Assembly: GCA_009781575.1 (NCBI GenBank)
Contig: WQXW01000036.1
Location: 1 to 10,315 of the forward strand
Length of the DNA stretch: 10,315 nucleotides
Source: Solirubrobacterales bacterium
GTDB taxonomy: Bacteria; Actinomycetota; Thermoleophilia; Solirubrobacterales; Solirubrobacteraceae
Direction of reading: 5' to 3'
Numbering within the stretch: position 1 is the first letter of the stretch; every line of letters starts with the position of its first letter. The notes under the pieces are model-generated. The model did no database searches. It was not told the DNA's origin and was given only the letters and a program-made list of their open reading frames with translations. Positions 1 to 9,852 of the stretch are shown here, piece after piece. The position numbers were made by a program, and so were the translations under genes.

Positions 1-111
1 CCATGTCGGTCATGCCGTCTCGTCGCGCCCTAGGCGCGCGGCGCGCAACCACCGATCACTACGAGGCCGTCAGTAGCAGGCGTTGCACGTAACACCCTCG
101 GCGACCAACCG

Positions 112-1740
112 CTACCAGCGGCCTATGCGGGTGAGCAGGACGGCTGCAGCTGCCGCGCCGGCCGTCGATGTGCGCAGGACCGTCGGCCCCAGGCGGGCCT
201 CTACCGCGCCGGCGGCGCGTAGCTGCTCTCGTTCGGCTGGGCTGATGCCACCTTCCGGGCCGACTACCAGGATGATCTCGCCATGCTGCGGCAGTGCCCG
301 GGCGGACAGTGGTGTCGTCGCGTCTGCCTCGAGCACAACGGCACAGGCCGCGTCTGTGGCTAGCTGGGCGACGTCGGGGAGGATGGCCGGGCCGCCTATT
401 TCGGGGAACCAGGCGCGCCTGGACTGTTTGGCGGCCTCGCGCGCCGTGGCGCCGCTGCCGGGGGGCGCGATCACCTCGCGCAGGCCGTGGCGCGCGGCCT
501 CGGCGAGCCGCCGCTCAGGGTGGCCCACCCAGCGCAGCTCGCCCGTGAGCCCGAGCTCGCCAAAGCACGCGCGGGGCGTGTGGCGAAGGGGCGCGCCCCG
601 GCTGGCGGAGGCCACCGCCAGCGCCAGCGCCAGATCGGTGCCGGGCTCATCCACACGCACCCCGCCGACCACGTTGACGAACACGTCGGCGCCGCCGGTG
701 CCCACGCCGCCGTGGCGCGCGAGGATCGCCAGCACCAGCGCCAGGCGGTTGCGATCGAGGCCCGACACCACGCGGCGCGGCTGCTCGAGCTCGGAGGGCG
801 CCACCAGCGCCTGCACCTCGACGAGCAGCGGGCGCGAGCCCTCCATCGCGGCCAGCACCACGCTGCCGGGCGCGCGGGTGGCCTCGGCCACGAAGCGCGC
901 GGACGCGTCCAGCACCTCCACCAGCCCGCCCTGGCGCATCTCGAAGATGCCCGCCTCGTTGGTGGAGCCGAAGCGGTTCTTGAGCGCGCGCAGCTCGCGG
1001 TAGGGCCGCTCGCGCTCGCCCTCGAACTGGAGCACACAGTCGACGAGGTGCTCGAGCGCGCGCGGCCCGGCGAGCGCGCCGTCCTTGGTCACGTGGCCCA
1101 CCAGCACGGTGGCGATCGCGCGCTCCTTGGCCAGCGCCATGATCCGCGCGGTGGCCTCGCGCACGTGGGCCACCGAGCCGCCGGCGCCGGGGAGCTCGCC
1201 GGCGCGCAGCGTCTGCACCGAGTCGATCACGCACACCTCCACGGCGGCGCGCTCGAGCGCGCCCAGCACCAGCTCCAGCTCCGTCTCGGCCACGATCGGC
1301 ACCCCCAGCGCGGCGGGCCCCAGGCGCTCGGCGCGCAACCTCACCTGCTCGGGCGACTCCTCACCGGAGACATACAGCACCCGCCGTCCGGCGCCGGCCA
1401 GGTTGCCGAGCGCCATCGTGGTGAGCGTGGACTTGCCGATCCCCGGCGAGCCGCCCAGCAGCACCAGCGAGCCCGGCACCAGCCCGCCGCCGAGCACGCG
1501 GTCGAGCTCGCCGATCTCCGTGCGCAGCCGTTGCAGCGGCGCGGTGCCCACCTCCGCCAGCGGCCGCGGCGTGGGCGGCTCGCCGAAGCCGGCGCCGGCG
1601 CGGCCGCCGGTCCCCTGCTGGCGCGTATCGGCCACCTGCTCGAGCGTGTTCCACGCCCCGCACCCCTGGCACTGCCCATGCCACTGCATCGACTCATACC
1701 CACACTGGGCGCATCGGTGGAGCACGCGGGCGCGAGCCAT
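112..1740 (-). CDS. radA: DNA repair protein RadA with a fused RsmE C-terminal half (chimeric)
   Basis: RadA (Sms) is a RecA-like ATPase and branch-migration helicase that processes recombination intermediates. The 542-residue product starts at the ATG that puts the zinc finger at once in place: C10/C13 and C24/C27. Walker A GGSPGIGKST is at 96-105, a Walker B-like strand ends at D173, and the RadA signature KNRFG is at 254-258. A Lon-like domain follows, ending with FGELGLTGELR (393-403) and AARHGLREVIAP (415-426). RadA should end about 30-40 residues later. Instead, residues about 431-542 match the C-terminal SPOUT half of RsmE (16S rRNA m3U1498 methyltransferase): REAAKQS at 434-440, the SAM-site motif GPEGGIS (494-500) and the knot motif LGPTVLRTSTA (517-527). 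The N-terminal PUA-like domain and first SPOUT strands of RsmE are absent. Codon use shifts at the same place (see findings). The RadA part is certain; whether the tail is functional, or the joint an assembly artefact, is open. Confidence 0.93.
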   Translation of the reverse strand: MARARVLHRCAQCGYESMQWHGQCQGCGAWNTLEQVADTRQQGTGGRAGAGFGEPPTPRPLAEVGTAPLQRLRTEIGELDRVLGGGLVPGSLVLLGGSPGIGKSTLTTMALGNLAGAGRRVLYVSGEESPEQVRLRAERLGPAALGVPIVAETELELVLGALERAAVEVCVIDSVQTLRAGELPGAGGSVAHVREATARIMALAKERAIATVLVGHVTKDGALAGPRALEHLVDCVLQFEGERERPYRELRALKNRFGSTNEAGIFEMRQGGLVEVLDASARFVAEATRAPGSVVLAAMEGSRPLLVEVQALVAPSELEQPRRVVSGLDRNRLALVLAILARHGGVGTGGADVFVNVVGGVRVDEPGTDLALALAVASASRGAPLRHTPRACFGELGLTGELRWVGHPERRLAEAARHGLREVIAPPGSGATAREAAKQSRRAWFPEIGGPAILPDVAQLATDAACAVVLEADATTPLSARALPQHGEIILVVGPEGGISPAEREQLRAAGAVEARLGPTVLRTSTAGAAAAAVLLTRIGRW

Positions 1741-7893: not shown

Positions 7894-9117
<1,224 letters not shown>

Positions 9118-9121
9118 TCAG

Positions 9122-9127
9122 AAAATA
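9122..9127 (-). promoter_or_regulatory. Candidate dus -10 element
   Basis: The minus strand reads TATTTT only five bases before GTG 9117 and eleven before GTG 9111. If used, it would give a leaderless or nearly leaderless dus mRNA, which would fit the lack of a Shine-Dalgarno sequence. No convincing -35 was found. Confidence 0.25.
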
Positions 9128-9173
9128 ACGGCAGTCCCGCAGAATGGGCCGGGGCCCGCGCCGGCGGTGCCGC

Positions 9174-9275
9174 TCGAGCAGCGTCCGTGTCGTTCTTTGT
9201 TTTACGGATTGGTTCCGCGCGGAACGAATCCTCATTTTGAATCCCCCAACGGCCCCTCAGACAGGTGTCGCTCGG
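9174..9275 (-). repeat. Dispersed palindromic repeat, copy 3
   Basis: This copy runs in the opposite direction to copies 1 and 2. It keeps the TTCCGCGCGGAA centre and most of the 30-bp palindrome (9204-9233, outer pair degenerate), the GGGGATTCAAAA spacer, the CCGTTG arm and the GCTGCTCG end. It lies between the toxin gene stop and the dus start, which are co-directional, and could have displaced the original dus promoter. Confidence 0.78.
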
Positions 9276-9297
9276 CTGGGTCCGGAGGCCGCTGCGC

Positions 9298-9852
9298 TCA
9301 ACCATCGAGGCCGAGCAACTCGGCGGCGGCGCGCACGGCCGGGTGGGCGGGGGTCAGCGGGTTCACCTCGACGACTGCCAGCGCCGGGTGGGCGCGGTCG
9401 AAGAGGGTGAGGTTGGCGAGGCTGGACTCGAGTGTGGACCACCAGCGCAGCGCCGCGGGCGCGGGATGGCGCGCGAACAGCGCGGCGGCGTGGGCCCGCG
9501 TGACCGCGCGCCTGTGGGTGGCGACCTGCGAGGGACGCAGCTGGACGTCGAGCAGCACGCGGGGATCGTCGAGATCGAGCACGCGCGCGTGGCTCGAGAG
9601 CGACAGCTCGGCCAGCGCGAGGGGCGTCCGGGAGCGCACGAGCATCCCCTCGTCGAGCGCGCCGGCGCCGCGGAACGGGGCCAGCGCCTCGGCGACGGGC
9701 GATACCGGACTCTCGCCGACGTAGAGACAGCCGTAGAGATGGGGATTGTCGTGGCGTCCGGCGCCCTGCAGCTCGCGCGCGAACCACAGGGGGCCACCGG
9801 GCTCGGTGGGCCGGGACGCCGCGCGCCACGGCAGCACCCGCCAGAGGATCAC
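9298..9852 (-). CDS. RES-domain toxin of a Xre/DUF2384-RES toxin-antitoxin pair
   Basis: RES-domain toxins deplete cellular NAD+; the mycobacterial member MbcT is an NAD+ phosphorylase. The 184-residue product fits the family length. The name-giving residues appear to be present: R5 in LWRVLP, E55 in PVAEALAPF after the strand GCLYVGES (41-48), and S139 in RWWSTLESSLANLTLFD (136-152). The start is GTG 9852, which overlaps the antitoxin TGA as GTGA. This gives translational coupling and places LWRV at the N-terminus as usual; a longer open frame to 9969 would read through the antitoxin gene. No frameshift or missing key residue is seen, so it is probably active when not bound by its antitoxin. 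Gene order (antitoxin first) is standard. Repeat copy 3 follows immediately downstream. The exact reaction is inferred from the family. Confidence 0.87.
   Translation of the reverse strand: MILWRVLPWRAASRPTEPGGPLWFARELQGAGRHDNPHLYGCLYVGESPVSPVAEALAPFRGAGALDEGMLVRSRTPLALAELSLSSHARVLDLDDPRVLLDVQLRPSQVATHRRAVTRAHAAALFARHPAPAALRWWSTLESSLANLTLFDRAHPALAVVEVNPLTPAHPAVRAAAELLGLDG

Follow-up and report, generated by a model that had tools for sequence, protein, structure and literature searches.

Three described systems come closest to the reading frame analysed here. RadA/Sms proteins are represented by the NCBIfam model TIGR00416. The 16S rRNA uracil(1498)-N3 methyltransferase RsmE consists of a PUA-like N-terminal domain (PF20260) and a methyltransferase domain (PF04452), and carries the segments GPEGG and LGP.VLRT, which we take to be its signatures. 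The third system is the chimeric contig of short-read metagenome assemblies. A literature search on a fusion protein of RadA and RsmE returned no paper naming these in title or abstract.

The window, that is, the whole stretch of DNA analysed, comprises 10,315 bases and is one complete contig (C36) of a 2.25 Mb genome in 401 contigs that is 73% complete and that we infer to be a metagenome bin. An unbroken frame runs on its minus strand from 1749 to 112 and encodes 545 amino acids from a GTG at 1749; the longest frame begins at 2049, and inspection favours the ATG at 1740 as the start of RadA. The RadA body (451-1740, minus strand) contains the zinc-binding motif, the ATPase and the Lon-like domain (PF18073, PF06745, PF13481 and PF13541) and lacks the last ~20 residues. 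It matches TIGR00416 at residues 4-433, covering profile positions 1-434 of 454 with 485.5 bits (cut-off 403.05), as is required of a RadA/Sms protein. The native C-terminal tail followed by disA, which is the usual arrangement in the genus, is not found on C36, where the tail is replaced. In its place stands the C-terminal part of an actinomycete-like RsmE up to the stop codon (112-429, minus strand), which is foreign to the order of this genome. PF04452 matches residues 435-538 with 91.7 bits at profile positions 60-164 of 165. Thus, the C-terminal SPOUT part is present with intact GPEGG and LGP.VLRT segments, and the methyltransferase domain is incomplete, profile positions 1-59 being absent. 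The best NCBIfam model for this part, the RsmE equivalog NF008693, reaches 122.3 of the 210 bits that its cut-off demands. The PUA-like domain PF20260 was found neither in the fused protein nor anywhere else in the genome.

A sequence-only reading of this DNA had described RadA followed by RsmE in one frame, with the joint somewhere between 112 and 700. Both points are borne out by the profile matches, which assign the protein to RadA up to residue 433 and to RsmE from there to the stop, and by the placement of the joint at 430-450. The SPOUT match, on which that reading had made its RsmE assignment depend, is the PF04452 match given above. Since window position 1 is the end of C36, the joint sits 450 bases from a contig end, and the RsmE part occupies these terminal 450 bases. 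No gene was assigned to bases 1-111, between the end of the contig and the RsmE stop, and they are taken to come from the same foreign source. When bases 1-447 were compared with 60 related genomes, just four short matches of 24-45 bases were obtained.

Codon usage changes along the frame. Codons ending in A or T make up 18 of 433 before residue 434 versus 25 of 112 from there on (Fisher p = 1.6e-8). The earlier count of 6 in 93 codons before residue 434 was exact; its 25 of 109 for the remainder should read 25 of 112. The best single break in third-base G+C lies at codon 450, 16 codons beyond the joint. Overall G+C is 0.70 for window bases 1-429 and 0.71 for the first 300 bases of C36, which is not unusual.

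The fused protein was compared with 61 genomes, namely the present genome plus 23 from its genus, 13 from its family and 24 from its order, and 50 of them gave a match. Some of these matches extend to residues 465-519; as PF04452 was found in none of the 60 relatives, we take them to be chance extensions of the tail. The same PF04452 search succeeded in 10 of 14 controls, as did that for PF20260, which was found in 0 of the 61 genomes. RsmE, as judged by PF04452, thus seems to be missing from the order, 41 of the 60 genomes being at least 90% complete. As a separate observation, the fused protein found no RadA in 9 of the 23 genomes of the genus, well-completed ones such as G017 (97% complete) and G013 (90%) among them.

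The search for the same joint elsewhere, proposed by the sequence-only reading, was performed with residues 395-545 against ~5.8 billion proteins, from which at most 7,997 candidates within a length limit were taken: among the best 120 of 1,533 matches, both halves were covered only in the window's own protein. A close second fusion should appear near the top of such a list. The closest other RadA is 80% identical and no radA of the same species was found; the named RadA matches belong to Solirubrobacteraceae. For the RsmE part (111 residues searched), the best matches are metagenome RsmE proteins (P0001, 88% identical; P0002, 86%), and the two of the 120 listed matches that carry an organism name are from Nocardiopsaceae and Trebonia. 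In a scan of at least 60 loci for a donor genome of rsmE, none of those listed exceeded 61% identity to P0002, and near-identical rsmE DNA was not found. Precomputed Pfam domains place an RsmE domain together with DnaJ-type domains in P0136 and P0142 and with PF03060 in P0138; these could represent genuine fusions or neighbouring genes that were joined.

At the joint itself, 21 bases (430-450, minus strand) encode ATAREAA (residues 434-440), a word that by family comparison is compatible with both RadA and RsmE. Its 21-mer does not occur a second time in the genome. For the comparison, 182 RadA and 140 RsmE proteins that fit a simple pattern, out of 347 fetched and with the window's own protein excluded, were aligned without gaps at the joint. 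The RadA pattern prescribes P, S, G, E, T/S and L, the RsmE pattern E, A, K and Q, and agreement at these positions is by construction. The free positions before the joint follow RadA (e.g., H, G and A 99%, V 86%, L 81%), those after it follow RsmE (S 92%, R 99%, R 99%, A 89%, W 96%, P 99%), where agreement with RadA is 0-4%. Within the word, T at the second place is rare among the 182 RadA proteins (3%) and R is present in 55%. Listed RadA tails include SGAGAREAATLREA (9 of 204) and listed RsmE proteins KWRATAREAAKQSRRAWLP (18 of 136), so at the protein level a short word common to both partners is indicated at the joint. As AREAA is found in the RadA tail of none of the 13 same-genus loci, the exact DNA word of the RadA parent is supposed. 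Because both families read the word in the same frame, a join there would automatically be in frame. The proposal that a strand of RadA takes the structural place of the one lost from RsmE is hence not needed and was rejected: the partners meet at ATAREAA, the segment before it is RadA's own, and the RsmE domain remains incomplete.

A location of the joint within a dispersed repeat of the genome was likewise considered and rejected, the nearest copy found beginning at ~1830-1840. The repeat in question is an intergenic element of ~100-125 bases with an inner palindrome, present in the window at 1840-1960, 2629-2749 and, inverted, 9145-9268. It is highly repeated in this genome: a first look gave 353 candidates, of which 34 were scored, and 35 near-full-length places with 89-100% identity are listed, the query included. 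At E 0.001 none of 25 other genomes (15 of the same genus, 10 of the same order) matched, and an Rfam search of the window was without match. It could be a private element of the MITE or REP kind.

The absent radA end was sought through its neighbour. In 12 of 13 same-genus loci (L003-L015) disA follows radA, with the DisA motif 177-375 bases past the radA stop, and in the thirteenth (L006) the contig edge is reached. Among 16 further loci scanned, two have the DisA motif after radA, five have radA without the motif in reach, and in nine no radA motif was found. The disA gene of the present genome (466 bits for DisA) lies on another contig, C34 (10,484 bases), at 8552-9658 on the minus strand. 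A frame of 123 residues (C34 9740-10111, minus strand) ends 81 bases upstream of it. This frame closes with LREALALALPAPARGPRRAAA and a stop, an ending that resembles RadA tails such as LREALAAALPVAGSRPARAAA of L008. Of 197 RadA tails, 17 have LREALALA, which makes it one of their two most frequent forms. The sequence-only reading had proposed looking in the rest of the genome for a canonical 3' end of radA. An ordinary tail is indeed present beside disA; it is attached to foreign-looking DNA and does not belong to an intact second radA.

The first ~100 residues of the C34 frame are not RadA and are joined in frame to the RadA tail. Pfam and NCBIfam name nothing in this part at E 0.001. At a loose threshold ApbE appears with E 0.056, below the Pfam cut-off and beside two other sub-threshold families, and all four matches in the PDB are FAD:protein FMN transferases (E 0.093-0.17). 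As the likeness to ApbE stays below the cut-off, the shared word at this joint is shown for RadA tails and supposed for the other partner. The contig end also carries PF07456 (62.1 bits, cut-off 30), which was found in 0 of 60 relatives and is rare anyway (2 of 14 controls). In the C34 end the families found are PF07456 and DisA, and nothing was recognised as an integrase or transposase. Measured per 300 bases, its G+C values of 0.58 and 0.56 fall under the 0.61 that marks the 1st percentile of 502 inner windows. With PF07456, a weakly ApbE-like start and a RadA tail, C34 9740-10484 (L097 2689-3433) represents a second chimera-like contig end in this assembly. A survey of 63 contig ends by G+C gave six low ones, among them the C34 end and not the C36 start, so chimeric ends are not shown to be widespread in the genome.

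Taken together, a single radA gene appears to be divided between two contigs whose foreign ends differ. As expected of a chimera, the joint on C36 lies near a contig end between partners of different origin, and the true continuation, the RadA tail with disA, is found elsewhere in the same assembly, on C34. The partners are dissimilar, each lies at a contig end and is joined in frame, and one of them meets radA at a shared word, a picture that points to false joins at shared k-mers. We therefore consider the RadA-RsmE fusion to be very probably a false assembly join at a chimeric contig end, with the joins presumably made by the assembler and not by the cell. According to this model, the radA-disA locus of a Solirubrobacteraceae-like bacterium would have been broken during assembly within the final ~20 radA codons. 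At C36 the contig would have run on, by way of the word coding for ATAREAA, into the 3' portion of an actinomycete-like rsmE; at C34 it would have run on, by way of the word coding for LREALALA, into a different, lower-G+C and weakly ApbE-like piece. A k-mer of ~21 could have served as the bridge, and the frame shared by both families at the rsmE word would have kept the false join in frame, as is likely for C34 too.

The sequence-only reading had left three explanations side by side: a new fusion, a radA end overwritten by transferred rsmE DNA, and an assembly chimera. The third is strongly favoured over the first two. Overwriting of the radA end by a transferred rsmE piece was rejected because disA still has a RadA tail next to it. 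It is very unlikely that foreign DNA, perhaps a large piece, really entered the 3' end of radA in the cell, by insertion or recombination, and left RadA with part of RsmE at one border and the ApbE-like piece with the RadA tail at the other, each in frame. Both contig ends do meet within the same ~20 codons of radA, like two borders of one insertion, and the change in composition fits foreign DNA. However, the two ends differ in G+C (0.70 for window 1-429, 0.56-0.58 for the C34 end), neither the C34 end, with no integrase or transposase recognised, nor window 1-450, which contains the RsmE part only, offers such a gene, and the start of the insertion within rsmE would need to coincide exactly with a word also found in radA. 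Even more improbable, to the point that we give it hardly any credence, is a functional RadA-RsmE fusion whose methyltransferase fold would be completed by the end of RadA. The unbroken 545-codon frame and the intact GPEGG and LGP.VLRT segments would agree with it, but it would have to function without PF04452 positions 1-59 and PF20260, as the sole example among the best 120 of 1,533 matches and in an order where 60 of 60 relatives are without RsmE, while the RadA tail stands beside disA on another contig.

The false join favoured here carries a caution for G+C-rich genomes, in which a coding word of ~20 bases may be common to two unrelated genes and be read in the same frame by each. A false join at such a word can mimic a clean in-frame domain fusion with a composition break. 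Such cases can be largely settled without reads if the displaced native tail is searched for in the same assembly next to a gene that conservatively neighbours it, as disA does here.

In comparison with the described systems, residues 4-433 are like RadA/Sms, and the difference lies in the last ~20 residues, which are absent on C36 and present as an ordinary tail on C34. Residues 434-545 are like RsmE; unlike RsmE, they comprise PF04452 positions 60-164 of 165 only, have no PUA-like domain and belong to a family absent from the 60 relatives. The locus as a whole resembles the chimeric contigs of short-read metagenomes in its foreign contig end, the short shareable word at the join, the change in composition and relatives, and the second such end at the same gene on C34. 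It differs from the usual chimeric contig in that the join falls in frame inside two genes and thereby mimics a protein fusion.
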